A stretch of 38,503 bases of DNA from IMG/VR virus record IMGVR_UViG_3300044982_000040, positions 1 to 38,503 of that record; one strand, given 5' to 3'. The stretch's first letter is position 1. Each line of letters begins with the position of its first letter. The notes under the pieces are model-generated. The model was not told the DNA's origin. It made no database searches and saw only the letters and a list, made by a program, of their open reading frames with translations. Shown here one piece after another: positions 70 to 36,423 of this stretch. This stretch comes from a virus. The translations under genes and the position numbers were made by a program.

Positions 70-756
70 ATGCAGCAACCTACCAACGGCCACTCCGGCC
101 ACGCCAGTGACAAAGTCATCACCCCCCGGACAGACAGCCGCACCCCGCGTGTCGTCGGCTGGCTGGCACTGTCGGGCGTCTCCCTCATCGCCGGGATCGC
201 GTCGTACTTCCACGCCCTCGCCGTCGTCCAGGCCGCGGGCGCGACGCCGCCGGTGTCATACCTTGTCCCCGCCCTGGCGGATCTCGTCATCCTCGGGGCG
301 TCAGCAGACCTGCTCGCCGCATCCCGCGCCGGGCACGGCCGGCCCCGGCTGACCATGGTGGCGCTGGGTGTCGGCATCGTGGTCACCCTCGCCATGAACG
401 TGGCCGCCGGATGGCACCACGGGCCCGGAGGACGCCTGGTAGCGGGGTGGCCAGCCCTGGCGTTCACCCTGGCGCTGGAGTCCCTGGCGGGGCTCGTCCG
501 GCGCGGCCGGGGCGGTGTGAGCGTGCCTCCTGTCCCGGCCGCGCCGGACAGCCCTGCCGGATGTGGTCACGGGGTGTCGGAAACCCGCGAGGAACGCATC
601 GTCGACGCCTTCCTGCACCTGCGTGACTGCCTCGGTGCCGAGCCGTCGTTCCGGGACCTCGGGCGGGCGTTCGGCATCCATCACGACACGGCTGGCCAGC
701 TGGTCAAGGCGGCACTGAACGGGAGCGCGCCGGAGGGTGTGCACGCTGATGCCTGA
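70..756 (+). CDS. DUF2637-like membrane protein with C-terminal helical domain
   Basis: The 228-residue product has four hydrophobic segments at about residues 28-48, 62-82, 97-113 and 122-141, then a Pro/Gly linker and a soluble C-terminal domain (about 170-215) that looks like a helix-turn-helix. This layout matches the DUF2637 proteins of Streptomyces plasmids and integrative conjugative elements, where they sit just before the FtsK-like transfer gene and are thought to help plasmid spread. The next gene is exactly such a translocase and overlaps this one by 8 bp. The start is supported by GGAAGGG 8 bases upstream. Role inferred from family and context, not shown. Confidence 0.75.
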   Translation: MQQPTNGHSGHASDKVITPRTDSRTPRVVGWLALSGVSLIAGIASYFHALAVVQAAGATPPVSYLVPALADLVILGASADLLAASRAGHGRPRLTMVALGVGIVVTLAMNVAAGWHHGPGGRLVAGWPALAFTLALESLAGLVRRGRGGVSVPPVPAAPDSPAGCGHGVSETREERIVDAFLHLRDCLGAEPSFRDLGRAFGIHHDTAGQLVKAALNGSAPEGVHADA

Positions 757-2872
757 CGGCACCAGCCTGCCAGCCGTGGCCACCGGTGACGAGGTAGTCG
801 AAGGCGTGGTCGTCGACGAGACACCGCGCCCGGCGCCGCTGCGCGTCGTCCACGCCGTAGTGGTCGTCGTCCGCCACGAGCACACCAAGACGGCGGGGCG
901 CCACCTCGGCTACATCGGCGCGGGCGTGGCGATCGCCGCGCGGCGCGTGTGGGACGAGCGGACCACCGCCCGCTACGGGCGGATGCTGCGCGCAGCCGAG
1001 CTGACCGGCAACCACGAGGCGGCGCTCGACTGGGACGAGCGGCAGGCTGAGTTCCGCCGCGACCGGCACCAGCGGCGGATGGACTTCCTCGAGTTCCCGC
1101 TCAAGGTGCTGATCATGCTGCCGAAACTGGCGCTCGGCATGTTCGCGATCCTGGCCGGGCTCGGCGTCCTGCTCGGCATCGCCACCGGCCACGCCGCCGA
1201 GATCGCCGCGCCCATCAGGGCGGTCGCCGACGTCATCCTGTGGACGTGGATCGCGGTATCGGTCACGTGGGAGCTGGTCATCGCCCTGGCGGTGATGCTC
1301 GGGCTGGCCGCGCTGTGGCACACCGGGCGCACCTCAGGCAGCGCGCTGCCGTGGATGCGGACCTCCGCCGACCCCGATTCCGACGTGACGATCGACGAGC
1401 GGACGATCACCCAGGCGCTCGACGCGATGCGCATCCCGCAGATCCGCGACTACATCAAGCAGGGACTGCCGCTCCAGTTCCTGACCCCGTGCCGGCAGGA
1501 AGGCCGCGGCACCTACGCCGAGATCAGGCTGCCGAAGGGCGTCACGGCCGAGAAGATCGCCCGCCGCCGCGCCGACTTCGCCGCGGGCCTGTACCGGCTG
1601 CCGAAAGAGGTGTGGCCGTCGACGGGCAGCGAGGCGGCGATGCTCAAGGTGTGGATCGCCGACAAGGGCGCGCTCGAGGAAGGAGCCGGGCCGTACCCGC
1701 TGCTCGACGACGGGTACGCGGACTTCTTCCGGCCGGTGCCGTTCGGCCGGACGCTGCGCGGTGACCCGATCGGCGCGCCGCTGGCCGAGCGGAACACCAT
1801 CGCCGGCGGGATGCCCGGTCAGGGCAAGTCCTCGGCCGCCCGGATCATCATGGCGGGGGCCGCGCTCGACCCGACCGCCGAGCTGCGCATCTGGGTTCCC
1901 GACACCAACTTCGACTTCGAGGCATTCAAGCCGCGGTGCTCCCGCTACGTCATGGGCGCCGAGGACGAGTTCATCGAGCAGATCCGCGACGACCTGCTTG
2001 AGCTGCGCGCCGAAGTGCAGACACGCGGACAGCTCCTGATCGACCACGAGGTGCCCGCGGTCACCCGCGAGCTGGCCAGCGCCGGGGTCGGGCTGCATCC
2101 GCTGGTGTGCCTGCTCGAAGAGGCGCACGTGGCGATCACCCACCCGAAATACGGCAAGGAGATCTCACAGCTCCTAATCGACATCGTGAAACTGGGCCGC
2201 AAGCGCGGCATCCACCTGATCGTGTCCACCCAGGCACCGACCAAGGACAGCATGCCCCGCGACGTGACCCGGAACTGCTCCAACGGAATCGCGTTCGCGG
2301 TCGGCGACCACGTAGCCAATGACGCGCTGCTCGGCCAGGGCGCGTACGCCGCCGGCCACCGCGCCACGGAGCTGATCCCCGGCACCGACCGCGGAACGTG
2401 CCTGGTCAAGGGGTTCAGCGGGGAGCGGTCGGAGATGGTGCAGGCGTATTTCCTGTCGGCGGACAAGGGCAGCGGCAATGACCAGGTGACGCCGATCATC
2501 GACCGGTCGCTCGCCGAGCTGGCGCGCCGCGGCCGCGCGGTGCCCGGCACGGACACGGTGCGCCGCGCGATCGAGACGCGCGACCTGCTCGCCGATCTCG
2601 GCGAGGTGCTCGGCTCCGAGCGCGTCAAGCTGGCCGACCTGCCCGCGCTGCTGCGTGACCACGCGCCGGGGTGGGGCCCGTACCGGAACATGACGCGGCT
2701 CCAGCTGCGTGACCAGCTTGAGGACAAGGGCGTGCGGGTGACGAATACCGGCAACGTGATGCGCCTGGACCCGGCCGACCTGCGTGCGGTGCTGGCGCGC
2801 CGGGAGAGTGAGTTACATGGGTGTCATCTTGCGGATATGTGCTCTGGGGATGTTTCCGGAGGGTGCTGTTAA
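749..2872 (+). CDS. FtsK/SpoIIIE-like DNA translocase (TraB type)
   Basis: A 707-residue protein with an N-terminal soluble part, two membrane helices (roughly residues 118-150 and 165-195) and a cytoplasmic motor domain. Walker A GGMPGQGKSS lies near residue 353 and Walker B LVCLLEEAH near 452, followed by the STQAP sensor-like segment of the FtsK family. In actinobacterial plasmids and AICEs such single proteins pump double-stranded DNA between mycelial compartments. ATG 749 is preferred over GTG 737 because GGAGGG at 732-737 is the ribosome site for 749 and would overlap the GTG. The last 20 residues (Cys-rich) look like an unconserved extension. An alternative role in segregation of phage or plasmid DNA is possible. 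Confidence 0.85.
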   Translation: MPDGTSLPAVATGDEVVEGVVVDETPRPAPLRVVHAVVVVVRHEHTKTAGRHLGYIGAGVAIAARRVWDERTTARYGRMLRAAELTGNHEAALDWDERQAEFRRDRHQRRMDFLEFPLKVLIMLPKLALGMFAILAGLGVLLGIATGHAAEIAAPIRAVADVILWTWIAVSVTWELVIALAVMLGLAALWHTGRTSGSALPWMRTSADPDSDVTIDERTITQALDAMRIPQIRDYIKQGLPLQFLTPCRQEGRGTYAEIRLPKGVTAEKIARRRADFAAGLYRLPKEVWPSTGSEAAMLKVWIADKGALEEGAGPYPLLDDGYADFFRPVPFGRTLRGDPIGAPLAERNTIAGGMPGQGKSSAARIIMAGAALDPTAELRIWVPDTNFDFEAFKPRCSRYVMGAEDEFIEQIRDDLLELRAEVQTRGQLLIDHEVPAVTRELASAGVGLHPLVCLLEEAHVAITHPKYGKEISQLLIDIVKLGRKRGIHLIVSTQAPTKDSMPRDVTRNCSNGIAFAVGDHVANDALLGQGAYAAGHRATELIPGTDRGTCLVKGFSGERSEMVQAYFLSADKGSGNDQVTPIIDRSLAELARRGRAVPGTDTVRRAIETRDLLADLGEVLGSERVKLADLPALLRDHAPGWGPYRNMTRLQLRDQLEDKGVRVTNTGNVMRLDPADLRAVLARRESELHGCHLADMCSGDVSGGCC

Positions 2873-6437: not shown

Positions 6438-9299
6438 TCACAGCATGGCCAGGATTGAGGGTGTCCACAAGCGCACGTCGGCGTCTGCGGCCTGGGCCTT
6501 CACGACGCCGTTGACGCTGCGGGTGACGGTGAAGGTCTGCGGGCTGGATGACCCGGTGATGTTCGTGACCGTGATCTGCTCGCCGCCGATATTGACGTCG
6601 AACGGGAAGTCGGCCGCCGCGGTGGTCCACAGGATCCCCGACGGCCCGGTGGTGGCCACCGACAAGGTGGTGGCCGTGGCGCTCACCGCGGCGGCCAGCG
6701 ATGCCCCGTCGGTGTCGGCACGGCCGTACACGGCGTCGCCGATGATCGCGACCTCATAGGGGGATTCGGGGACGCCGCACCAGGTGAGGGTGTAGTGGAA
6801 GCCGCCGAGCGCCTCGGTGACTTCCCATACCAGCTGGTTCACCGGGTCGTAGGAGATCTGGGCGAGCAGGTTCTCGATCTGCGCGTAGTCGCCGATGTCG
6901 GCGTCGAGCAGCGCCCAGTACAGGGTCGCTGTTATCTCGCTGCGTGCCAGGTTGAGCGGGATCTGCGGCCAGCGTGCCTCGTCGACGGTGCCGATGTGCA
7001 CCATCCACCCGGCCTCGTCGGGCAGCTGGCTGTCGTACTGGACGTTGACGGTGACCGAGTTCGAGTAGTCGCCGACGCCGACGGGCGGCGGGCTGATCGA
7101 CATGGCCGACCCGTCGTTCAGCTGGTACTGGAAGGTGGCGCCGGACACGTTGCCGCTGCCGCGCTGCACGATGAGGTCGTTGCGAGTGTACTGGTCGTCG
7201 TAGGTCGGCTCGAGACCGGAGTCGGTGCCGTCACCGTTCACCCCGCCGGGCTGGGACAGGCTGTAGTCGAGCTGGACGGCGGGCGTCTGGGTGCACATGC
7301 TGGCCAGCGTCCGGTAGCCGAGCCCGAGGCACTGCCGCGGCTCGAAGATCTGCCCGTTGTCGGCGGTCTCGCATTCCTGGAGGATGTCCAGGAGGGTGTC
7401 GACCGGCTGCGCGCCCATCGCGGCCGAGGTGTCCGGGGCGCCGATGATGCGTGCCTGGAGGCCGTTCTCTGTGCACAGCCGGGCGAACCGGTTCGCCGCG
7501 GTCTCGCCGACCCAGGCGTCCAGCGGCTGCTGCAGGGTGTACAGGGACTCCCAGGAGGACTGGACGGAGATGTGGCCGAGCACGCTGTCGGTGAGGCTGC
7601 CGGCAGGGCTGCCGTAGACGGCCTGGACGTTCCCGATGGTGCCGCTGAACGTGCCGGGCGTGATCGAGTACGCCTCACCGCCGTTGGCGGCGAGGAACAC
7701 CAGGTCGTAGGAGACGGTACCGGAACCGTCCGGGGTGAGCTCCATCGACATCCACAGGCCGCCGGTCATCGGCACCGTGGGGGTGAACGGGCCGGAGGAA
7801 AATACTGTGCCGCCGGCGGCGTTCTTCCCGATCAGGCCGAGACCGCCGCCGGTGTAGTAGAGGAAGGCGAGTTCCTGGACGGTGCCGCTGGTGATGACGC
7901 GGACGATCGTGGCCCCGTTCGCCGGGTCGGTGCTGCCGAGCTTGAATAGGAACCGCACCACGACCGCCCCGTTCGAGCTGTACCGGGGGACCTGTCCGTA
8001 CCAGCTGCTCCCGTTCATCGTCGGCAGCGCATTGCTGCACAGGAACGAGGTGTCGGCGGCGAACGCCGGGCCGGTGGTGGTGACCGACCCGTCGCCGGTG
8101 CCGCCGGTCACCGACATCTCCGGGCCGCCGGTCGCCGACCCGATCATGGTGGCGCCGGCCAGGTCCTCGCACGGCCAGTACTGCACGACCTGGAGTGTCC
8201 CGGACTGGGCGAGGAGCGCCCGCTTGATCGGGGAATACTCGGGTGCGTCGCCCTGGCCTAGGCGGCGCAGCAGGCCGCCGGACTGGACGGGGACCGCGAT
8301 GTCGGAGCCGGTGACGTCCCATTTCGGCGGGATGCTGGACATCTCGCCGTGGTAACGGTAGTTCCGGTCGCTGATCTCGGCGGTGCCGTTCAGCGTCCAC
8401 ACGTTGCCCTGAGCGTCGGTCACCGACGCGGCGCCAGCCGTGGCCGTGGTGAAGTCCGGGCTGGCGACGGGCGTCCCGCCGATGCCTGACAGGAGGTTGA
8501 TCGCGTACACGCTGCCGGTCAGGCCCGGGTCGCCGGAGGTGCCGAAGGTCAGCGACGAGGTGGATGCGTACAGTGCGCCGGCGGCGGCGAACTGCTGCGT
8601 GCTGCCGAGCTGTGTCCACGGGCCCGCGATCGTCGGGGCCGTGTACCAGGTGACGATGCCCGACGCATGGGCGTAGGTGATCCGGATGGCGACACGGCCC
8701 ACGGGGATCGGGAGAGTCGACGGCACGACCGCCGTGGTGGTGCCGTCCAGTGACCGCCAGAAATTCACGGTGCCCTCCGGCGTCACCTCCGTGTAGAAGG
8801 TGTACTCGCCGCTGCCGCCGTTCCACATGGCCAGCAGCGGGATCGCCTGCCCGGTGAGCGCGTACGCCAGGTGCGCGTCAACCTGGATATCGAGGTCGCC
8901 GGGAATGTTGAAGCTGGCGGTGTACGGGGCGCTGACCGAGGATGCGGCGTCGGTCTCGAACCGCAGGTAGGAGGTCTGCGCCGGGACGCTGAGGCGCAGC
9001 GGCGTGTTGCGGCCCAGTAGCCCGTAGTACGGCGATGTCGGCAGGAGCGGCGTGAACCGGCCGTCGCGGTTGTTGAGCTCGAGCGTCGCTGATGAGGCGG
9101 TGGCCTGGCTGGCCTCGTCGGGGCGGCCGCGGGTGATGGTGACCGGCGGCGAGTCGCCGCTGCGCTGGTAGACGTAGCTGCTGATGTCGGTCCACGTGCC
9201 GAGGTCGAGTTCGGCGCGCAGGTCCAGCGGCGAGCCGGGAAATGCGGCACCGTAGGTCGACGGGTAGTCGAGCGGGTAGACGGTCGTCGCGCCGGACAT
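6438..9299 (-). CDS. large minor tail protein
   Basis: A 953-residue protein with the opening seen in actinophage tail-tip proteins (LDLRAELDLGTWTDISSYVYQR, then a segment on RGRPDEASQATASSATLELNNRDGRF). It continues with two jelly-roll or LamG-like regions (about 105-270 and 370-560), a region like the baseplate hub of long-tailed phages, and a C-terminal beta domain. It would sit at the tail tip and contact the cell surface. AAAGGAGG lies just before the ATG. The order tape measure, tail spike, this protein places it in the distal tail module. Confidence 0.8.
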   Translation of the reverse strand: MSGATTVYPLDYPSTYGAAFPGSPLDLRAELDLGTWTDISSYVYQRSGDSPPVTITRGRPDEASQATASSATLELNNRDGRFTPLLPTSPYYGLLGRNTPLRLSVPAQTSYLRFETDAASSVSAPYTASFNIPGDLDIQVDAHLAYALTGQAIPLLAMWNGGSGEYTFYTEVTPEGTVNFWRSLDGTTTAVVPSTLPIPVGRVAIRITYAHASGIVTWYTAPTIAGPWTQLGSTQQFAAAGALYASTSSLTFGTSGDPGLTGSVYAINLLSGIGGTPVASPDFTTATAGAASVTDAQGNVWTLNGTAEISDRNYRYHGEMSSIPPKWDVTGSDIAVPVQSGGLLRRLGQGDAPEYSPIKRALLAQSGTLQVVQYWPCEDLAGATMIGSATGGPEMSVTGGTGDGSVTTTGPAFAADTSFLCSNALPTMNGSSWYGQVPRYSSNGAVVVRFLFKLGSTDPANGATIVRVITSGTVQELAFLYYTGGGLGLIGKNAAGGTVFSSGPFTPTVPMTGGLWMSMELTPDGSGTVSYDLVFLAANGGEAYSITPGTFSGTIGNVQAVYGSPAGSLTDSVLGHISVQSSWESLYTLQQPLDAWVGETAANRFARLCTENGLQARIIGAPDTSAAMGAQPVDTLLDILQECETADNGQIFEPRQCLGLGYRTLASMCTQTPAVQLDYSLSQPGGVNGDGTDSGLEPTYDDQYTRNDLIVQRGSGNVSGATFQYQLNDGSAMSISPPPVGVGDYSNSVTVNVQYDSQLPDEAGWMVHIGTVDEARWPQIPLNLARSEITATLYWALLDADIGDYAQIENLLAQISYDPVNQLVWEVTEALGGFHYTLTWCGVPESPYEVAIIGDAVYGRADTDGASLAAAVSATATTLSVATTGPSGILWTTAAADFPFDVNIGGEQITVTNITGSSSPQTFTVTRSVNGVVKAQAADADVRLWTPSILAML

Positions 9300-21654: not shown

Positions 21655-22785
21655 CTAACCCGCCGGGGGCGCCAGTACCACGACCGGGGACACCGCCGCC
21701 CCGGCCTCCGTCGTCGACTGGCTCTGAATCCAGTACCGGCCGTCGACCCGGGAGCGGATCCGGAAGTTGCTGGTGTCCTTGATGAACCCGGCACCGTCCT
21801 TCGACTGCTCGACGGTCATCGTCAGCCGGTCACTGATCACGTACTGGGACAGATCCGCGAGCATCACGTCGCCGGTGCTGCCGAGCGCAGGCTGATGGTC
21901 GGTGATGCTCGCGGGCAGCCCCAGGCCCGACGGGCCGATGTCGTGGCCGTCGCCGAACTGAAACCACTCCGATGTCGTGGCCGGCGTGATGTCGGTGCCC
22001 GCAGTCGACCCGCCGGTGTTCAGGTACAGCTCCAGCAGCTGGGGAAGCGCCGCCGACGAGATCAGCCACCGGACATGAGTCAGCCCCGGCGTCAGACCTG
22101 CCTGCAGCGCCGCCGGATGCAGCCCTGTCAGCATCGCCGCAATGTCCGCCACCAGCACCTTGTCCGAGGTTCCCCGGTTCACGGCCAGCGCCGCACCGCC
22201 GTTGGCCAGTGACTGCGGCTCCCCGGCACCGGTGCCGTTGAAAATGAACAGGTCATCCTCGAACCATGCCAAGCCCAGCGCGATGACCCGGGCGAGCAGG
22301 TCGCCCATCGCGCCGGCCGCGTCGTCGGTCAGCTCGTTCGGGACGCCCTGCAGGTAGGCGGCGATCTTCCGGGCCTCCAGCACCAGGCGGCCGAGTGCCG
22401 GGTTCGTCGCCGGGATCGTCTCCCCGACCTCGACGATGGAGAACGTGAGACCGCCGAGCGCCTGCTTGCCTGACGCCTGCGACGGGTTGTCCAGCAGCGG
22501 GATGCCCAGGCGAGGGCTGTCCATCTCCACCACCGTCGCCCGCGGGCGCACGATCGCGGTGGTCATGTAGGCCATCACCTGAGCGCGCAGCGTCTCCGGC
22601 ACGAGGAAGCCGCCCTCGCTGGGCACCCGCTCGGACCAGGTGTTCCGGATGACCCTCCTGGCCTCGCCCGCCGGGTTGAAGACGGCCTTCAGGTACGTCG
22701 CCCACGACTTCGCCCACGGCTGGTCGTCCAGCCGCGCGCCCGGGGCGTCTGGCCGGTAACCCGGCAGGTCGCGGAGGTTTATCAT
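21655..22785 (-). CDS. second HK97-type major capsid protein
   Basis: The 376-residue product has the HK97-fold layout (N-arm, then IVRPRATVVEMDSPRLGIPLLDN, GETIPATNPALGRLVLEARKIAAYLQGVPNELTDDAAGAMGDLL, FIFNGTG.GEPQ..., and a C-terminal VISDRLTMTVEQSKDG...RIRSRVDGRYW). It has only about 45 residues before the capsid core, so it lacks a scaffold domain. Residues 51-67 are identical to residues 186-202 of the other capsid protein, and the DNA is identical over 48 bp. Whether both proteins enter one shell is unknown. Confidence 0.85.
   Translation of the reverse strand: MINLRDLPGYRPDAPGARLDDQPWAKSWATYLKAVFNPAGEARRVIRNTWSERVPSEGGFLVPETLRAQVMAYMTTAIVRPRATVVEMDSPRLGIPLLDNPSQASGKQALGGLTFSIVEVGETIPATNPALGRLVLEARKIAAYLQGVPNELTDDAAGAMGDLLARVIALGLAWFEDDLFIFNGTGAGEPQSLANGGAALAVNRGTSDKVLVADIAAMLTGLHPAALQAGLTPGLTHVRWLISSAALPQLLELYLNTGGSTAGTDITPATTSEWFQFGDGHDIGPSGLGLPASITDHQPALGSTGDVMLADLSQYVISDRLTMTVEQSKDGAGFIKDTSNFRIRSRVDGRYWIQSQSTTEAGAAVSPVVVLAPPAG
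22589..22636 (-). repeat. 48-bp perfect repeat shared by the two capsid genes (copy 1)
   Basis: These 48 bp are identical to 23995-24042 in the other capsid gene. They code for the SERVPSEGGFLVPETLR segment. The genes around it are far more diverged, so the identity points to recent gene conversion or strong selection at DNA level. Confidence 0.95.
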
Positions 22786-23069: not shown

Positions 23070-24596
23070 TTACGTCTGCTGGCCGAGCTTGACGATCATG
23101 GACAGGGTGCTAGGTGATCCGTTGGCCGGAGTGAGCGCGCTGCGCTGCCAGCCGCGGCCGTCCAGCCGCTGGGTGATGCGGTAGGACACCTCGTCGTTCG
23201 CGAAGCTGTACTCCGCTGAAGAGGCGACCTGCATCGCCTGCCTATCCCCGATGAGATAGCCCGTCGGGTCGTACAAGGCCAGGGCGCCGTCCGGCTGAGC
23301 GCCGGCGGACGCATCCGGGTAAGGCAGCTTCTCCGACACGCGGCCGGGGATGCCGAGCATCTTGAAGGTCATTCCGTCGGTCTGCAGGTTGGCGGGCATC
23401 TCGATCGCCTGCATGCCGCCGAGCATGGCGGGCGGCGCGATCGCCGTGCTGCCGACGATCAGCCCCATGCCCAGCAGCTGGCCGAACGCATCCGGGCTGC
23501 ACACCCAGCGAGCCCGCTTCAGCGACGGCGGCCACAGCCGCACCAGCATCGCGATAACGTCCGTCAGCGCGATCTTCCCGGCCGTCGTCGCGGGTACGGT
23601 GACAGCGCCGGGGCAGCTCAGCAGGCCCTCCGGCTCGTCGATGCCGGTGCCCATCAGGAACGCGTAGTCCTCGAAGAACGAGACAGCCTGCGGGAAGAAC
23701 GTGTTGAACCACACGTCCATCGGCGAGACCGAGTCCTGCAGCAGCTCGTTCGGGATCTGCGTGAAGGCGGTCAGCTTCGATGCCTGGAGCACGACCCGGC
23801 CGAACTTCGGCGCGGTGATGGTCAGCGCCGCACCCTCAGCCGTCCACTCGGCCGCCACGCCGCCGAACACGGTCGAGGTGTGCGACGTGTCGTCGATCGA
23901 CGGGAGCGGCACCCGCAGCGAGTCCATCGGGATGACGGTAGCCTCGGGACGCATCACCGCGTCCTCAAGCACCAGCGCCAGGATCTCGGACCTGAGCGTC
24001 TCCGGCACGAGGAAGCCGCCCTCGCTGGGCACCCGCTCGGACATGCCCGCGTTGCGGATCTCCAGCGTCTTCGCCAGGCTGCTCTTCAGGCCAAGCAGCT
24101 TCTCGGCCAGCTCGCTGTCGCCGTCCCGGGCCGCGACGTGCTGGCCCTTGATCGTCGCCCACACGAACTTCCTCAGGTCGCTGGCGTACTCCGAGTTGTC
24201 GATGTCGTCGGAGGCACCGAGCGCCCGCTCGGCGAACAGGCCCTGCTTGTCGAACAGGTCCGAGGCGTTCCGCACCCTCGAGCGCGCAACCGCCCGCTGA
24301 CGACGCGGGCTACGCCGGCCCTGCAGCAGGTCCAGCGCCATGCCGGGCCGGAAACCATCCCGCGGCACCGCGCCGTTCCGCTGCGCCTGATCCTGGAAAA
24401 ACTCCTGGATACCCAGCTGCGCCTGCTCCTGCAGCTGCGCCTGCATCTGCGGGCCGTACTTGCTCGCGGCCCACTTCTCCGCATAGTTCCGCACCAGGCC
24501 GGCGACGCCGCCATCCTCCACGGCGGCGCTCAGCCGCGCGGGATCGTGGAACAGCTCCTCCAGCTCGTCGCCGGTCTCCGGCATCACCGCTGTCAC
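23070..24596 (-). CDS. HK97-type major capsid protein with N-terminal scaffold domain
   Basis: The 508-residue protein has a helical, Gln/Glu-rich N-terminal region (residues 1-185; LQEQAQLGIQEFFQDQAQ) like the delta or scaffold domain of HK97-type capsids, which is normally cleaved by the head protease encoded just upstream. The capsid core follows: SEGGFLVPETLRSEIL, RVPLPSIDDTSHTSTVFGGVAAEWTAEGA, FGRVVLQASKLTAFTQIPNELLQDS, and a C-terminal LIGDRQAMQVASSAEYSFANDEVSYRITQRLDGRGW. GTG 24596 has GGGAG 9 bases upstream. It is the likely main shell protein. Confidence 0.9.
   Translation of the reverse strand: MTAVMPETGDELEELFHDPARLSAAVEDGGVAGLVRNYAEKWAASKYGPQMQAQLQEQAQLGIQEFFQDQAQRNGAVPRDGFRPGMALDLLQGRRSPRRQRAVARSRVRNASDLFDKQGLFAERALGASDDIDNSEYASDLRKFVWATIKGQHVAARDGDSELAEKLLGLKSSLAKTLEIRNAGMSERVPSEGGFLVPETLRSEILALVLEDAVMRPEATVIPMDSLRVPLPSIDDTSHTSTVFGGVAAEWTAEGAALTITAPKFGRVVLQASKLTAFTQIPNELLQDSVSPMDVWFNTFFPQAVSFFEDYAFLMGTGIDEPEGLLSCPGAVTVPATTAGKIALTDVIAMLVRLWPPSLKRARWVCSPDAFGQLLGMGLIVGSTAIAPPAMLGGMQAIEMPANLQTDGMTFKMLGIPGRVSEKLPYPDASAGAQPDGALALYDPTGYLIGDRQAMQVASSAEYSFANDEVSYRITQRLDGRGWQRSALTPANGSPSTLSMIVKLGQQT
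23995..24042 (-). repeat. 48-bp perfect repeat shared by the two capsid genes (copy 2)
   Basis: Identical to 22589-22636. It lies at the junction between the scaffold domain and the capsid core of the longer capsid protein. Confidence 0.95.
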
Positions 24597-24683: not shown

Positions 24684-26281
24684 GAGGCAAACGCCTCCTT
24701 CAAGGCGTTGCCGAGCCGTCCCAGGTCAACGCCGGAGAGGGCTTGCCGTGCACTGTCTTCCGGTTCGTAGTCCGGGTTGACCTGCTTCATCGCTGCCTGC
24801 AGCGTCTTCTTCGCCTCGGCCTCGTTCGTCAGGTCCTGCGTCTGCGGGAGCCTGCCGAGCGCGGCCTTCACCCCGGCCGCGTTCGGCGGGTCGTCCGGGT
24901 GGTACTTGTACGGCAGCGCCCACGCCGCCTGCGTCGACTTGTCGCCCGCCTTCTGGCCAGCGCAGATCCCGGCGAAGAACGCGGCCGGGTCATCCGATGC
25001 CGTGCCGTTCGCCATCGCCTTGCCGCCGTCCCACGGCGAGTTGTCGACCTTGCCGTCGGCGTCCCGGATCGCCAGGCGGTAGAACGCCCACAGCTGCTCC
25101 TCGGCCGCGTCCTTCGCGACCGGGCACGGCGGGATGGGCTTGATCTGCTTGCCGTCCGGATCGAAGTAGTCATGGTCGGTGTCACCCTCGGGCGTCGAGT
25201 CGTCGTCGCCGTCGCCGTCCGGGTCGAACCGCACCGTGCCGTCAGCGCCCCGCACCCAACCATCGCCCAGGTCCTCGTCGCCAGCCGCGTTCCGCGCCCG
25301 GTCAGACGGCTTGTCGTCGTCCTGGCTGCCCTCCGGCACCCGGCCGGTGCCCTTGCACTGCGGGCACGTCACATGACCATCGCGGATCTTCCCCGACCCG
25401 TGGCACAGGTTGCATTCCTCGGTGGCGTCGTCATCGTCCTGGCCGTCGTCCGCGGCGTTCTGCATGCCGCCGTCGTCATCGTCGGCGTCGTCTCCGCCGC
25501 CTGGGGTATAGGTGCCCGAGCCCTTGCACGACGGGCACTTCACGCTCGCCTTGCCCGTCGACGGGTGCTTCAGACGGCCGGTACCTGCGCACGTCTTGCA
25601 CGACTGGCCGTCGCCGGCGGCGTCGCCGTCGTCCGCGGCGCGCACCCGTGCCTGCGGCATCGACCGCAGCCGCGCCGCGATCCGGCCCGGGACCGCGGTG
25701 AACGCGGCAACGTCGAGCCCGGCAGGCAGCTCCGCCTGCTCACCCGACACCTTGTCGGCCAGCCCCGCGACAACCGCCTCGTCAGCGGTGTACCACGTCT
25801 CGTCCTTCATCGCGGCCCGCCAGTCCTCCGGCGTGCCGCCGCACCGCTCCGCGTAGATCGAGGCCAGATTGCCCGACACCTTGTCCAGCGTCGCGGCCAT
25901 CTGGGCCATCTCCCCGGCGTTGCCCATGCAGCCGCCGAACGCGTCATGAATCATCAGCATCGACCCGGGCGCCACAACCCGCTCCTGGCCGGCCTGGGCG
26001 ATCACGCTGGCGATCGAGGCGGCCAGGCCGTCGACAACCGTGGTCACCGGCCCTTTGTGGCCGCGTATCGAGTTGCCGATCGTGATGCCGTCGAAGACAT
26101 CGCCGCCCGCCGAGTTGATATGCACCTCGAGCGCGCCCTTGATCGCGGCGAGCTGGTTCGCGAAGTCGGCCGCGGACACGCCGTCGCTGAACCAGCCGCC
26201 GCCGCCGATGTCGTCGTACACGTCGACGCGAGTCGAGCCGCCCTCGTTGCGGATACGGCACTTCAGCGGGTACACGGTCAC
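24680..26281 (-). CDS. ClpP-type head maturation protease fused to DnaJ zinc domain
   Basis: A 533-residue protein. Residues 1-200 form a ClpP/S14-like protease: HINSAGGDVFDG (54-65), catalytic Ser89 in GLAASIAS, His112 in MIHDAFGG. Residues 228-313 hold four CxxCxGxG motifs (C228, C249, C290, C306), a complete DnaJ-type cysteine-rich domain, spaced by a highly acidic loop. An Asp-rich segment (354-378) and a C-terminal helical domain (about 386-505; WALPYKYHPDDPPNAAGVKAALGRLPQ) follow. It would trim capsid scaffold. GTG 26281 overlaps the portal stop (GTGA); the open frame upstream lies over the portal gene. Confidence 0.85.
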   Translation of the reverse strand: MTVYPLKCRIRNEGGSTRVDVYDDIGGGGWFSDGVSAADFANQLAAIKGALEVHINSAGGDVFDGITIGNSIRGHKGPVTTVVDGLAASIASVIAQAGQERVVAPGSMLMIHDAFGGCMGNAGEMAQMAATLDKVSGNLASIYAERCGGTPEDWRAAMKDETWYTADEAVVAGLADKVSGEQAELPAGLDVAAFTAVPGRIAARLRSMPQARVRAADDGDAAGDGQSCKTCAGTGRLKHPSTGKASVKCPSCKGSGTYTPGGGDDADDDDGGMQNAADDGQDDDDATEECNLCHGSGKIRDGHVTCPQCKGTGRVPEGSQDDDKPSDRARNAAGDEDLGDGWVRGADGTVRFDPDGDGDDDSTPEGDTDHDYFDPDGKQIKPIPPCPVAKDAAEEQLWAFYRLAIRDADGKVDNSPWDGGKAMANGTASDDPAAFFAGICAGQKAGDKSTQAAWALPYKYHPDDPPNAAGVKAALGRLPQTQDLTNEAEAKKTLQAAMKQVNPDYEPEDSARQALSGVDLGRLGNALKEAFAS

Positions 26282-33228: not shown

Positions 33229-34287
33229 TCAGCCCTCCCTGGCTGCGAGATCGCGCGATGCTCGCCAGAGGTCGCGCAGGATTTCCTTGGCGACAGCCCG
33301 GAGCGCGCGGGCGTGCCTGTGGCCGTCTGAGAGCGGTGTTCCGGGCAGTGCGGGATGGTTCTTCGGTCCGCAGCGGACGCATTCCTTTATGTGAATGGCG
33401 TCCTTGTAGCGGTCGCGGGCGGCGTCGTAAATGGCGCGGTAGGGGCTGTCGCGGATTTTCATGCAGGATTCGGCGACGAGGAATGCACGCATCTTGGCGG
33501 TGGCGTTCCAGTTGGCTTTCTGGCCGCGCTTGCGGACCTGGGTGGCTGCGTCGCCGTAGCCGCAGTAGGACCACAGGTCGGAGACGCGGCGGGGCTGGTC
33601 TGCGGCGGTGTTCCAATAGGGGTCGCCGATGGCGGCGAGGAGGCGGGCGCCTTGCTTCTCGCCGATGCCCTTGACGCCCTTGATCCACGGGTTGAGGGGG
33701 TGGGTGCGCATGTGGCGTCCGAGGGTGAGTTCGGCTTTGTGCTCGGCGTCGGCGAGCATGGCGACGAGGGCGGCGAGGCGGGCGACGTCGGGGTGTGTCT
33801 CGTCGAGGCCGAATCCGTCGTCGTCGTGGCTGGTGAGGGTTCGGAGCCGGTTCTCGTTGGCGATGCGGACGTGCTCGAGGTCGTCGAGGATGTCTGCGGC
33901 GAACGCGAGCCACGCATCGTGCTCCGCCAGCTCAGGCGGTACGGCTATGGGGATCGATGCTCCCGTGGGCTGAGCTGGCGGATCTTGCTCCCCGGCGGCG
34001 CAGGTGGTTTGGGCACCGCTCGAAGTGTGGCCGCCGGGGAAGTCATCAGCCGCAGCGGATCCAGCATGGGGATCGCTCACAGCGTGGCTGCGGCTGGTCT
34101 TGCTCCCCGCAGGCGCTTGCAGCCTGGGTGTCGACTCAAGATTGGCCTGCGGGGAATTCTTGCCCTCAGCGGCGTGCCCTTTCTGGGTGCCGAAATTGCC
34201 CTGGCCGCTGAGGGGGTCTGACCCGGACGGCGGAGCTGCCATGGTTGCCGGGGCGCACTTGGCCGTCCGGGGGTCTGCGAGGGTCAC
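33229..34287 (-). CDS. IS110-related protein without nuclease domain; hairpin array in its 5' part
   Basis: From GTG 34287 (GTGA overlap with the preceding stop) the frame gives 352 residues. Residues about 119-352 resemble the coiled-coil and C-terminal Transposase_20 part of IS110 recombinases: long helices, helix-hairpin-helix VKGIGEKQGARLLAAIGDP (about 200-220), SDLWSYCGYGDAATQVRKRGQKANW (about 235-260), basic C-terminal helices with a CVRC pair. The N-terminal DEDD (RuvC-like) domain is absent and the S-S-G expected after the GYG turn reads AAT. Residues 1-118 are disordered and coincide with the six-hairpin array, so they may not be selected as protein. Likely an RNA-binding, not transposing, relative. 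Confidence 0.75.
   Translation of the reverse strand: MTLADPRTAKCAPATMAAPPSGSDPLSGQGNFGTQKGHAAEGKNSPQANLESTPRLQAPAGSKTSRSHAVSDPHAGSAAADDFPGGHTSSGAQTTCAAGEQDPPAQPTGASIPIAVPPELAEHDAWLAFAADILDDLEHVRIANENRLRTLTSHDDDGFGLDETHPDVARLAALVAMLADAEHKAELTLGRHMRTHPLNPWIKGVKGIGEKQGARLLAAIGDPYWNTAADQPRRVSDLWSYCGYGDAATQVRKRGQKANWNATAKMRAFLVAESCMKIRDSPYRAIYDAARDRYKDAIHIKECVRCGPKNHPALPGTPLSDGHRHARALRAVAKEILRDLWRASRDLAAREG
33923..33982 (-). repeat. array unit 1 (last on the minus strand, longest arms)
   Basis: Arms TCCGCCAGCTCAG and CTGAGCTGGCGGA, loop 33936-33969 (34 nt: two extra bases on each side). Minus-strand loop parts: CGGGAGCAT, core CGATCCCCA, TAGCCGTAC. The unit next to the protein domain is the one with the longest stem. 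Confidence 0.92.
33989..34040 (-). repeat. array unit 2
   Basis: Arms TCCCCGGCGGC and GCCGCCGGGGA, loop 34000-34029. Minus-strand loop parts: CACTTCGAG, core CGGTGCCCA, AACCACCTG. Confidence 0.95.
34047..34096 (-). repeat. array unit 3
   Basis: Arms CAGCCGCAGC and GCTGCGGCTG, loop 34057-34086. Minus-strand loop parts: CGCTGTGAG, core CGATCCCCA, TGCTGGATC. Confidence 0.95.
34104..34155 (-). repeat. array unit 4
   Basis: Arms TCCCCGCAGGC and GCCTGCGGGGA, loop 34115-34144. Minus-strand loop parts: ATCTTGAGT, core CGACACCCA, GGCTGCAAG. Confidence 0.95.
34163..34214 (-). repeat. array unit 5
   Basis: Arms CCCTCAGCGGC and GCCGCTGAGGG, loop 34174-34203. Minus-strand loop parts: GGGCAATTT, core CGGCACCCA, GAAAGGGCA. 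Confidence 0.95.
34222..34271 (-). repeat. array unit 6 (first on the minus strand)
   Basis: Arms CCCGGACGGC and GCCGTCCGGG, loop 34232-34261. Minus-strand loop parts: first variable segment AGTGCGCCC, core CGGCAACCA, second variable segment TGGCAGCTC. Confidence 0.95.
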
Positions 34288-34775
34288 GCGAACCACTCCC
34301 GAAGCGTCTCGTCGGGAAGATCGCGGACCCGCGCCGCGCTGCCGTCATCCATCGCGGCGGCGAGACGTCGCATCAGCGCCGCCTTCGCCTCATTCTGCGC
34401 CGCCAGCTCCTCAAGCTGCGACGCCACGAAAATCACGTCATCACGCGACATGTCACCGATACGGCGCACGCTCCCATCCGCCACCGTGTACCGGATCGCG
34501 TCCAGCGACCGCCGCCACGCCTCCCGGATACCCGCCAGCTTCGGCGAGCGCGCACGGCCCTTGTCGCCCGGCGCCGGCGTCTCGGCAGGCGGCCGGCGCA
34601 GCCCCGGCTTGCGGATCATGTCATGCATGAACGGGACAAGCGCCTGATCCAGCGCCTCACCGACAAGATCATCAGGAATGCGGCGGCGCAGCTCCTTCAG
34701 GATCTGCCCGAAATCCTCCGACGAATCCTCGTCAATCACCTGGCGCGCCAGCACGCGCAGCTCGAAGTCAGTCAT
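34284..34775 (-). CDS. hypothetical helical protein upstream of the array
   Basis: The 163-residue product has an N-terminal helical part (FELRVLARQVIDEDSSEDFGQILKELRRRIPDDLVGEALDQALVPFMHDMI), a basic linker and a C-terminal helical part (RRIGDMSRDDVIFVASQLEELAAQNEAKAALMRRL). ATG 34775 is preceded by GAGGAAG. Its stop overlaps the GTG of the IS110-related gene, so the array is transcribed from the same operon right after this gene. Function unknown. Confidence 0.65.
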   Translation of the reverse strand: MTDFELRVLARQVIDEDSSEDFGQILKELRRRIPDDLVGEALDQALVPFMHDMIRKPGLRRPPAETPAPGDKGRARSPKLAGIREAWRRSLDAIRYTVADGSVRRIGDMSRDDVIFVASQLEELAAQNEAKAALMRRLAAAMDDGSAARVRDLPDETLREWFA

Positions 34776-34811: not shown

Positions 34812-35111
34812 TCAGTCCTCCTCGGGTGGTTTCGGCGGAGGCCAGCGCCCCCACAGCTGATAGATGCGCTCGTCGCCGAGCTTGCAGCACACCGGGCTCT
34901 GCTTGGCCAGCTCCCGCCTGCGGGCACCCGGCGACCGCGCCCACGCCGGCAGCAGCGTGGCGGCGAAGATCCGCCCCAGGTCCAGGCTCGCGCCCTTCCC
35001 GTTGCAGCCCACCAGCGACGCCGGTGCCCAGTGACGGGCACACCACGGGCTGCCTTTCGGCGCGTCCGGCGGGCCGGTGAACTGGTCGAAGAACTCCGTC
35101 GCGGTGCTCAT
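34812..35111 (-). CDS. hypothetical Cys-containing protein, 99 residues
   Basis: Product MSTATEFFDQFTGPPDAPKGSPWCARHWAPASLVGCNGKGASLDLGRIFAATLLPAWA... with cysteines at PWCARHW, GCNGKG and PVCC, and a Pro-rich acidic end. ATG 35111 overlaps the TGA that would end the methyltransferase in its shifted frame (ATGA), which supports this start. An open frame joining it to the methyltransferase in one protein is not credible. Function unknown. Confidence 0.6.
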   Translation of the reverse strand: MSTATEFFDQFTGPPDAPKGSPWCARHWAPASLVGCNGKGASLDLGRIFAATLLPAWARSPGARRRELAKQSPVCCKLGDERIYQLWGRWPPPKPPEED

Positions 35112-35945
35112 GCGGACTCCATCTCGCTGAACAGGCCCGGCTGCATGGGCTTGGCCAGCCGGACGCGGGTGAGTGCCAGGGCTACCGGTGGGGCCGGTTC
35201 CGCAGAACGGATCGAGGACCGTGCCGCCGGGCGGTGTCACGAGCCGGACGAGCCAGCGCATCAGCTCAACGGGCTTGACGGTCGGCCACGCCGTGCCATC
35301 CTCAAGGCGGGGCCGCTCGGATGCCGAGGCCTTCGCCTGGTAGCGGAAGGCCGGGAAGAATCGGCTTGCGCCTCCGGTATCGCCGTAAGAGTCGAAGTCG
35401 CGTACCCGGGCAACCTTGTCGCCCATGATCCCGGCACGGTTCCCCGACTGCTGGTGTATGCCGTGCGCGGAACCGCCCGCCGGGCGGACGCCGCTCTGCC
35501 GGTCCAGCTCGGCTACCGGGCATGAATCGGAACACGACCACGCCTCGACGGTCTCCATGCCGTCCGCGTCGGCGTAGCCGCTGTCGCGGTCCTGGTCGCG
35601 CATCCCGTAATCGCTCTTTGTGGTGCGCCCCCCGCCGCGCCGGGATCCTTGCGTGATCCCCCGCACTTTCCGCGTCCCGGTCATCTCGCATTCGGGGGTG
35701 TGGCTCAGCAGGATGTTCGCCGGCCAGCGGCAGTCACCGAAGGTCGCGCCCGCGATGTACGCCTCGGGTGTCCGCGTGAGCGACCTCCCCTCGGCGGGAT
35801 TGGTCCGTGCGCCGGACGGCCTGAACGTGTCCCACTCGCGGCCCATGAACTCAAGCCCGTACGGCGGATCACAGACGACCGAATCCACGCTCGCGTCCGG
35901 CAGCGGCAGGTGCGCGGCGTCCCCGCGCAGGATGACCACGCTCAT
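35108..35945 (-). CDS. DNA methyltransferase, probably frameshifted near the C-terminus
   Basis: From ATG 35945 the product reads MSVVILRGDAAHLPLPDASVDSVVCDPPYGLEFMGREWD, with DPPY motif IV near residue 26-29, a target-recognition region with several cysteines, then WPTVKPVELMRWLVRLVTPPGGTVLDPFCGTG (motif I, FCGTG) near the end. This is the order of N4-cytosine/N6-adenine methyltransferases of the beta type. After FCGTG the frame loses sense, while the +1 frame gives VALALTRVRLAKPMQPGLFSEMESA and ends at 35108 in ATGA with the next gene. One extra base, perhaps in CCCC near 35193, would explain it. The enzyme probably modifies phage DNA against host restriction. Confidence 0.75.
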
Positions 35946-36097
35946 GGCGCGCTCGGCGTGGCGTACGGCACGGCGCACGGGCAGCGGTGCGACGGCGGCG
36001 GAGGCGGCACGTGGGCGGCGCGGACGATGACGACGGCGGCGACGAGAGCAGCGGCCAGGATGATCGCCGTCCCGATGAGATGACCGCGGGCGTTCAC
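35942..36097 (-). CDS. small membrane protein, 51 residues
   Basis: GTG 36097 overlaps the preceding stop (GTGA) and the TGA overlaps the methyltransferase ATG (ATGA). The peptide has one membrane helix (LIGTAIILAAALVAAVVIVRAA) and a Pro-rich tail with a CPC motif. Function unknown; a membrane accessory protein of the early operon. Confidence 0.55.
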   Translation of the reverse strand: MNARGHLIGTAIILAAALVAAVVIVRAAHVPPPPPSHRCPCAVPYATPSAP

Positions 36098-36423
36098 TTC
36101 GCGGGTCCTGCCTGAACCCGGGCCTTGGTCCAGTTGTACGAGGAGAGGTCGAGCAGCGCCGACAGTATCCAGTCAGCTTCCTCCTCGCTGTACAGCCCGT
36201 AGACGCCTTCGATGCCACCCTGGTCATGCCAGCCTTTGACGAGCACCCACCGCGGTTCTTCGTCGGACGTGACCGGCGCGGGCGGGTGCGGCGGCCGGAT
36301 CCACTGGCGCAGGTACTTGAGGAACTCGTCGCGAGGGTCGCCGCTGATGTTGATCAGCAGGCGCACCGGCTCGTCGCGCTCCGGCGCGCCCAGCCGCACT
36401 GGTGGTTCCGGCGGGATGTTCAC
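36094..36423 (-). CDS. hypothetical protein, 109 residues
   Basis: Product MNIPPEPPVRLGAPERDEPVRLLINISGDPRDEFLKYLRQWIRPPHPP... then EEPRWVLVKGWHDQGGIEGVYGLYSEEEADWILSALLDL. An alpha/beta fold with a GLYS..EADW segment, reminiscent of small actinobacterial proteins of unknown function. GTG 36423 overlaps the preceding stop. Confidence 0.6.
   Translation of the reverse strand: MNIPPEPPVRLGAPERDEPVRLLINISGDPRDEFLKYLRQWIRPPHPPAPVTSDEEPRWVLVKGWHDQGGIEGVYGLYSEEEADWILSALLDLSSYNWTKARVQAGPAK

Follow-up and report, generated by a model that had tools for sequence, protein, structure and literature searches.

A candidate TIGR stem-loop guide array within the tas reading frame of a tailed-phage record

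The virus record IMGVR_UViG_3300044982_000040 of IMG/VR, a stretch of 38,503 bases analysed here at its full length and referred to as the window, carries six consecutive hairpins within the reading frame of an adjoining gene for a Nop-domain protein. The locus as a whole is best explained as a TIGR-Tas system of the stem-loop-array type, in which a nuclease-less TasA protein is accompanied by guides embedded in the tasA frame; we give this explanation a probability of roughly 0.85, and membership in TIGR-Tas, taken alone, is close to certain. A preliminary description of the same DNA had proposed a candidate guide-RNA array, a proposal now supported by the Nop-domain Tas neighbour and the two-spacer box C/box D plan of TIGR guides, and extended by the location of the array within the open reading frame (ORF) of the adjoining gene, which that description did not contain. 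Every structural feature of TIGR stem-loop arrays that can be tested by sequence is found in the window array. The window holds tailed-phage genes (terminase, portal, protease, head, tape-measure, tail, and endolysin), and its source, as judged from these letters, is a tailed phage tied to actinophages through the tas gene.

The hairpin array and the adjoining Tas protein

The array comprises six perfect inverted repeats at 33923-34271, which in ascending order have arms of 13, 11, 10, 11, 11, and 10 bp and loops of 34, 30, 30, 30, 30, and 30 nt, with linkers of 6, 6, 7, 7, and 7 nt and a pitch of 57-66 nt. These values bear out the six regular repeats with 10-13-bp arms and the five 30-nt loops plus one 34-nt loop noted earlier; of the similar 6-7-nt linkers, the lengths hold and the sequence likeness is only loose. 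On the minus strand, all six units follow the plan stem-C/CA-N9-CG-N4-CCA-N9-C/G-stem (slashes bound the loop). In the unit with the 34-nt loop, the motif CCA-N9-CG-N4-CCA-N9-CG is intact at 33937-33968 and a single C.C mismatch splits the closing C-G pair from the 13-bp arm, so that this unit resolves into the standard 30-nt plan. The exact motif occurs nine times in the window, six times in the array and three times elsewhere (6642-6673 on the minus strand; 210-241 and 25906-25937 on the plus strand), where each occurrence has at most three flanking pairs. Five other inverted repeats of the window have arms of at least 9 bp and loops of 24-42 nt, and none overlaps an exact motif match. The RNA of 33917-34290 (minus strand) folds into six hairpins at -188 kcal/mol with z = -5.9, equalled by 0 of 100 shuffles; with the exact motif missing from every other window repeat, this agrees with the earlier view that the regularity is beyond chance. 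The functional strand is the minus strand, the same as that of the adjoining tas gene.

Numbered in the tas sense, guide unit 1 spans 34222-34271 (10-bp stem, 30-nt loop; spacer A 34251-34259, spacer B 34233-34241), unit 2 spans 34163-34214 (11-bp stem; spacers 34193-34201 and 34175-34183), unit 3 spans 34104-34155 (11-bp stem; 34134-34142 and 34116-34124), unit 4 spans 34047-34096 (10-bp stem; 34076-34084 and 34058-34066), unit 5 spans 33989-34040 (11-bp stem; 34019-34027 and 34001-34009), and unit 6, with the 34-nt loop, spans 33923-33982 (13-bp stem, one C.C mismatch, closing C-G pair, 30-nt loop; 33957-33965 and 33939-33947), all on the minus strand. Each hairpin would be one guide unit, closed by a 10-13-bp stem without fixed sequence and containing box C (CCA), spacer A (9 nt), box D (CG), a connector, box C, spacer B (9 nt), and box D. 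The box names follow our reading of the alignment; box C and box D would each stand at both guide ends, as expected for a symmetric protein dimer. A CRISPR array was rejected, in keeping with the preliminary description, as the array has only short two-copy direct repeats and no conserved ones, and its stems differ from unit to unit.

The proposed tasA coding sequence (CDS; 33229-34287, minus strand) starts at GTG 34287 and encodes 352 aa, of which about residues 6-122 come from the array and about residues 118-352 (33229-33936) form the conserved Nop-domain core, as indicated by profile and structure matches. Profiles of phage homologues match TasR (PDB 9mty) at E = 1.3e-20 with 18 sequences and 1.5e-30 with 60, and TasH (21kl and others) at E = 1.1e-14 and 2.2e-19, respectively. 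The predicted structure of the 352-aa protein aligns with TasR (9mty_B: Z 19.6, root-mean-square deviation (rmsd) 2.0 Å, 187 residues aligned) and TasH (21kl_B: Z 19.4, rmsd 2.9, 214 aligned); a match to Nop5 (1nt2_B: Z 8.4, rmsd 3.9, 149 aligned) is tied with unrelated helical proteins and weak by itself. A tblastn search also reaches Salicola phage CGphi29, the source of the SpTasH of Faure et al. (28%, 68% covered, E = 1e-7). A Pfam search of the 355-aa ORF at E 0.001 returned no family, and no nuclease domain was found. In the TasA model, the core from about residue 121 has a predicted local distance difference test score (pLDDT) near 97; roughly the first 100 residues, which come almost entirely from the array, score 42-53 and have no structure, and we take this part to be disordered. 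Profiles and model together identify the gene product as a nuclease-less Nop-domain Tas protein (TasA).

Unit conservation, stem covariation, and spacer turnover

The gene is found by tblastn in 86 of 50,697 phage records, at one matching place in each: 76 Mycobacterium, 5 Gordonia, 2 Salicola, 1 Arthrobacter, 1 Rhodococcus, and 1 Microcystis (genus taken as the first word of the record name). Among PLSDB plasmids, tblastn at E 0.001 finds no tas homologue. The listed mycobacteriophage tas homologues are labelled in GenBank as 'transposase', 'DNA binding domain protein' or 'DNA binding protein', or 'hypothetical protein' (e.g., NC_024368 gene 70). Scans of IMG/VR and of genomes yielded 20, 80 (of 81), and 10 loci in overlapping sets, and these, with two mycobacteriophages and a Mycobacteroides prophage, make up 112 loci (the window locus is L001). 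A usable match is present in 110, and 71 are non-redundant under a filter of more than 90% tas identity between equal-length matches, a crude criterion that may leave or remove relatives; 60 of the 71 Tas sequences entered the Tas alignment.

The same pattern, for which the preliminary description had proposed a search of related sequences, recurs in these loci: across all 112, among them copies of one contig, a 30-nt loop is present in 226 distinct inverted repeats, against at most 29 repeats for any other loop length of 15-60 nt and 5 in triplet-shuffled sequence. The 226 loops have the consensus CA-N9-CG-(ACAC)-CCA-N9-C, with spacer positions close to unconstrained. Units lie mainly on the tas strand (581, copies included, versus 16 on the other strand and 7 in shuffled sequence), which agrees with a predicted transcription of the array from that strand; for units defined by the motif alone in 110 loci, the counts are 374, 11, and 3, respectively.

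Stem covariation, also claimed in the preliminary description, is borne out. It was measured on 362 motif-only units of the 71 non-redundant loci, which were picked by the loop motif alone, so that there was no selection for pairing. Standard pairs occupy 83% of 3,620 arm cells, compared with 48% after column shuffling and 59% (maximum 63%) after arm swaps within a locus. The first eight stem pairs are paired in register in 88% of cases versus 35-45% when shifted by one or two bases, and double changes occur 1,224 times, whereas the two controls reach no more than 505 and 790. Counting standard pair types (60 observed) is uninformative, as shuffles reach that number too, and the covariation rests on the share of paired cells and the double changes. 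Stem pairing and loop length, the two features whose loss in homologous loci the preliminary description would have counted against itself, are both conserved.

Spacers turn over against this constant background. The comparison used 13 mycobacteriophage-type loci (two named phages and eleven IMG/VR contigs, a few of them near copies) with nearly the same Tas. Their linkers, flanks, and most stem bases are almost unchanged, their spacers are wholly different in many units, and where stems differ the pairing is mostly kept. Such a pattern would be expected of hypervariable guides.

Several of the most distant loci have only a few units, with stems of 8-9 bp. At L015:4700-4836, the 3' arm of a hairpin doubles as the 5' arm of its neighbour, and only alternate hairpins can form at once; units overlap likewise at L016:1798-1885 and L017:7324-7407. 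A Gemmatimonadaceae contig (L109:2-307) carries four units with 12-bp stems at an exact 84-nt pitch, unlike the pitch in the window.

Guide units in the tas frame and alternative explanations

In the window, the array lies within the tasA reading frame, which is open through all six units, and the tasA start GTG (34287-34285) overlaps the stop TGA (34286-34284) of the preceding gene in a GTGA at 34284-34287 (minus strand). The frame was tested in the 42 of 71 loci that have at least two units within 150 nt upstream of the core (46 had any adjacent unit). The tas frame is open through the array in 29 of the 42, compared with 16 and 9 for the other two frames (Fisher p = 5e-5 versus the others pooled). 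An upstream ORF, defined as an open stretch of at least 60 codons and not as a called gene, has its stop overlapped by an in-frame ATG or GTG located within 40 nt of the array in 25 of the 29 open tas frames, compared with 3/16 and 1/9 for the other frames; the overlaps in these 25 loci, the window locus among them, show the ATGA, GTGA, or TGATG pattern of coupled genes.

Units also occur inside tas beyond the start of the core: 50 units in 24 of 71 loci, or 45 units in 21 loci under stricter criteria. Of the 50, 38 stand before the last conserved stretch, 8 after it, and 4 cannot be placed, and 5 are weak (two motif mismatches); in 15 loci, a unit starts within 20 residues after the conserved LWxYCG stretch. 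In the GenBank annotation of Gordonia phage BENtherdunthat, gene 59 (tas) overlaps gene 58 by 4 bases and contains 8 units within its CDS. Gene 57 of the same phage, located two genes upstream of tas, also contains units, and more follow directly after it (L126:306-477, 726-778).

The codon phase of the units is biased. Phases 0, 1, and 2 denote a loop start at codon position 1, 2, or 3, and the counts for 5' units and partner genes take only units with a 4-nt connector. Embedded 5' units fall into phases 0/1/2 as 63/3/63 (n = 129), the 50 units inside tas as 37/0/13 (33/0/12 for the stricter 45), and units inside the upstream partner genes as 15/0/6 (n = 21), compared with 18/18/12 (n = 48) for the non-embedded units of 13 closed-frame arrays; among non-tas frames that are open by chance, phase 1 accounts for 35 of 87 units. 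Since units within an array are not independent, we rely on the per-locus count, in which phase 1 is absent from 28 of 29 embedded arrays versus 4 of 13 closed ones (Fisher p = 1.4e-5). A stop codon would arise in 32% of 326 distinct units on reading them in phase 1, versus 18% and 9% in the other phases. In phase 1, each spacer makes up three whole free codons, whereas in the other phases it makes up two, and the remainder is shared with fixed bases. The plain reading of this bias is translation of the arrays in a frame that can accommodate spacer change; translation in the open-frame loci is, in our view, likely.

The strongest competing explanation holds that the TIGR stem-loop array is an untranslated leader, that the open frame in the window is a by-product of high G+C content, and that TasA starts after or inside the array. 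The openness of the other two frames in 16/42 and 9/42 arrays speaks for it, as do closed-frame relatives, the mycobacteriophages for example, in which clear Shine-Dalgarno starts follow the array, and the window itself has an in-frame GTG inside unit 4 and an in-frame ATG in unit 1. The window locus, however, offers no in-frame ATG, GTG, or TTG between the end of the array and the core, the start-stop overlaps accompany 25 of the 29 open arrays with phase 1 nearly absent, and the 38 units that lie between conserved tas stretches in other loci would need splicing or skipping in order not to be translated. We regard an untranslated leader as unlikely.

An IS110-type mobile element, with the gene as its transposase and the hairpins serving insertion or inversion as bridge RNA or end structures, is far less probable still, and IS110 was rejected as the family. 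PHROG and several GenBank records name homologues 'transposase', and the predicted 352-aa structure matches the IS110-family proteins ISCro4 (9t56_D: Z 14.2, rmsd 3.5, 178 aligned) and IS621 (8wt6_A: Z 14.0, rmsd 3.3, 175 aligned), but the TasR and TasH matches, at Z 19, are closer. The IS110-like gene that the preliminary description placed next to the array is therefore retained as the adjoining gene and reassigned to Tas. A DEDD RuvC-like catalytic domain was not found at the N-terminus by Pfam, and the short, array-encoded N-terminal part is modelled at low confidence without a fold, from which we conclude that this domain is not there. Unlike an insertion element, the gene occupies one place in each of the 86 phage records and follows the conserved partner in most loci. 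Least credible of all is selection at the protein level for a repetitive, fast-changing disordered tail with the hairpins as a codon-repeat by-product: the retention of phases 0 and 2 by embedded units does indicate that peptide or stop avoidance matters, but the identical unit type occurs outside the tas frame in all three phases, the arms covary by base pairing, the loop length is fixed in nucleotides, and a single array can alternate between phases 0 and 2, which leaves the peptide unconserved.

Several results weigh against embedded TIGR guides as the explanation. No unit was found on the tas strand in 5 of the 71 non-redundant loci (L006, L081, L086, L097, and L098). The tas frame is closed in 13 of the 42 arrays, so that a translated array is not a feature of the whole family. 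Rhodococcus phage Peregrin has a single detected unit, located after the tas gene, and Gordonia phage Morrissey has four units before, one inside, and two after the annotated tas CDS; these layouts mean that the embedded arrangement is not universal. The well-placed GTG at 34287 does not prove its use as a start. The embedded array of L056 has three of its four units in phase 1, and selecting stop-free arrays lowers phase 1 by itself, to a calculated share of about 28% (observed, 3/129).

The target searches belong on the same side. Predicted targets consisted of spacer A, 0-2 nt, and the reverse complement of spacer B, a geometry derived from the cleavage geometry in Faure et al., and the searches made, which covered part of the possible sequence (in IMG/VR, three of the six window units), found no convincing target. 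Against 882 kb of loci plus the window, 386 spacer pairs gave 8 matches at one mismatch (two sites counted twice, through a contig shared by two loci) and 106 at two, compared with 4 and 111 for permuted pairs, which is no clear excess. Exact scans of IMG/VR with window units 3, 4, and 5 hit 2, 7, and 2 contigs, a chance level. The unit 4 target (gap 2) matches exactly at one conserved site in a lambda-family portal gene (Pfam) on seven contigs (L115-L121); these represent one homologous site and hence one independent event, which is probably due to chance. Three predicted mycobacteriophage targets with gap 0 had no match in INPHARED, 26 mycobacteriophage-type pairs had none with up to two mismatches in the expected geometry in 50 kb each of Pinto and ConceptII, and neither did the six window pairs in the window. 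In two other geometries, ConceptII gave one pair each at two mismatches, beside its own array, and permuted controls gave one such pair in each of two Pinto runs. Two further searches were likewise negative: three genomes contained no match to the one L107 target tried, and 198 genomes from a single genus contained none to a mycobacteriophage target.

Taken together, we consider it probable that a large group of actinophages has dual-coding guides: whole units with variable spacers would stand in frame in tas (in a 5' extension, at one preferred site in the core, and in a C-terminal extension) and in the partner gene, their phase would be held such that changing spacers seldom produce stops or unsuitable peptide, and the transcript would be either translated or cut.

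Neighbouring genes, related systems, and proposed action

The upstream partner gene (34284-34775, minus strand; 163 aa, phrog_4604) is a conserved neighbour. A partner ORF of about 145-315 codons stands upstream of array and core in 59 of 71 loci, and these ORFs form two sequence groups (38 and 21 loci, with 34/38 and 21/21 ORFs entering the alignments) that are related by profile comparison (probability 98.1, E = 1e-13). Units of their own are contained in 14 of the 59 partner genes, 22 in total, and the gene preceding tas in BENtherdunthat, Morrissey, and Peregrin is a member of the partner family. The model of the window partner is confident (pLDDT 90); against the PDB it has no sequence match (best E = 0.32) and no fold match at E up to 0.001, and among viral models it matches four at that threshold, of which two are labelled uncharacterized proteins and two are unnamed. 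No other neighbour is retained as often, which makes the partner protein a candidate participant in guide processing or in the action of TasA. Downstream, the largest related set of ORFs within 1.5 kb spans 5 loci. In two mycobacteriophages, tas overlaps at its end with a gene for a Cas4-like exonuclease (L021:3681-4484); this gene was rejected as part of the system, as tblastn finds it in 1 of the 71 non-redundant loci.

Elsewhere in the window, a DNA methyltransferase-like ORF (34812-36227, minus strand) with N6_N4_Mtase and UPF0020 matches lies directly before the partner gene. Two ORFs, 21655-22785 and 23070-24596 (both minus strand), match the major head protein family phrog_10 (E = 1.3e-20 and 5.9e-36), which suggests two head-protein paralogues within one phage. 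A 711-aa ORF near the record end (737-2872, plus strand) matches FtsK/SpoIIIE-like proteins (phrog_1358, E = 2.2e-24); FtsK/SpoIIIE-like translocases occur in conjugative elements. Scans of the window found no Rfam family at gathering score and no tRNA or transfer-messenger RNA.

The array form was thought undescribed in the preliminary description, which is not borne out: TIGR 'stem-loop arrays' with variable palindromic stems are presented by Faure et al. (2025, Science, PMC12045711). There, pull-down sequencing of one stem-loop locus, a Peromyscus gut contig encoding a nuclease-less TasA, shows that the array is processed to individual hairpins; TasA is described as lacking clear associations with other proteins, a ParB-like gene being present in some loci, and guide-directed blocking or bending of other mobile DNA by TasA without cutting is suggested. 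Common to those systems and the present one are the nuclease-less Nop-domain protein, the tandem hairpins, the variable palindromic stems, and a middle part of fixed length and sequence. By comparison with what is described there, the present arrays lie mostly in the tas frame and sometimes in the partner frame, avoid one codon phase, and have a conserved upstream partner, and their box D is CG, as opposed to UG in the TasR arrays of that paper, where boxes diverge between loci. TIGR dual-repeat arrays with TasR or TasH resemble the present ones in two 9-nt spacers, box C as CCA (TasR), boxes C and D repeated at both guide ends, and a homologous Tas core, but have conserved edge repeats where these loci have long, unit-specific stems and no nuclease. 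IS110 recombinases with their bridge RNA share the Nop-like RNA-binding domain and paired guides in a loop, whereas here no DEDD domain is found and several single-loop units replace one two-loop RNA. Box C/D small nucleolar ribonucleoproteins (Nop5, fibrillarin) share the box C/D logic, with the weak Nop5 structure match noted above, but the present arrays are phage-borne. A TnpB reRNA is one guide that extends past the gene with its targeting part, whereas the gene considered here encloses several complete guides, spacers included. The likeness is that the guide RNA overlaps the effector CDS, as PMC11844463 describes for TnpB. For the guides inside tas, the codon-phase rule, the partner family, and the mycobacteriophage arrays, the literature searched (supplements and many journals and preprints aside) contained no pointer, and they may be new.

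By homology to TasR and TasH, a TasA dimer would hold one hairpin by its two box C/D pairs, and guide-loaded TasA would open 18 bp of DNA, with each spacer matching one strand. GTG 34287 is the most likely start of translation, which would be coupled to that of the partner gene, and the ribosome would read through the six guides as a disordered N-terminal tail of TasA. One transcript would serve as TasA message and as guide precursor cut at the linkers; excision of guides would then use up the message, and effector and guides would compete. A regulatory role of this trade-off is possible, though slightly less likely than not. The most likely role of TasA without a nuclease would be to block or bend the DNA of competing mobile elements without cutting.

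Guides inside the gene of their own effector, together with a codon-phase rule, would make up an unusual arrangement: a coding sequence with room for changing guides. If the array serves both purposes, a trade-off between message and guide is built in; if dual coding is true, the doses of effector and guide would be set against each other, and spacers could be exchanged while the gene stays intact. Most of the 86 phage records name M. smegmatis mc2 155, a strain that is easy to handle in the laboratory, as host, and with arrays of swapped spacers in the 13 mycobacteriophage-type loci, loss-of-function and guide tests become possible in the native host. This helps to bring the natural role of TIGR-Tas within reach of tests in laboratory phages.

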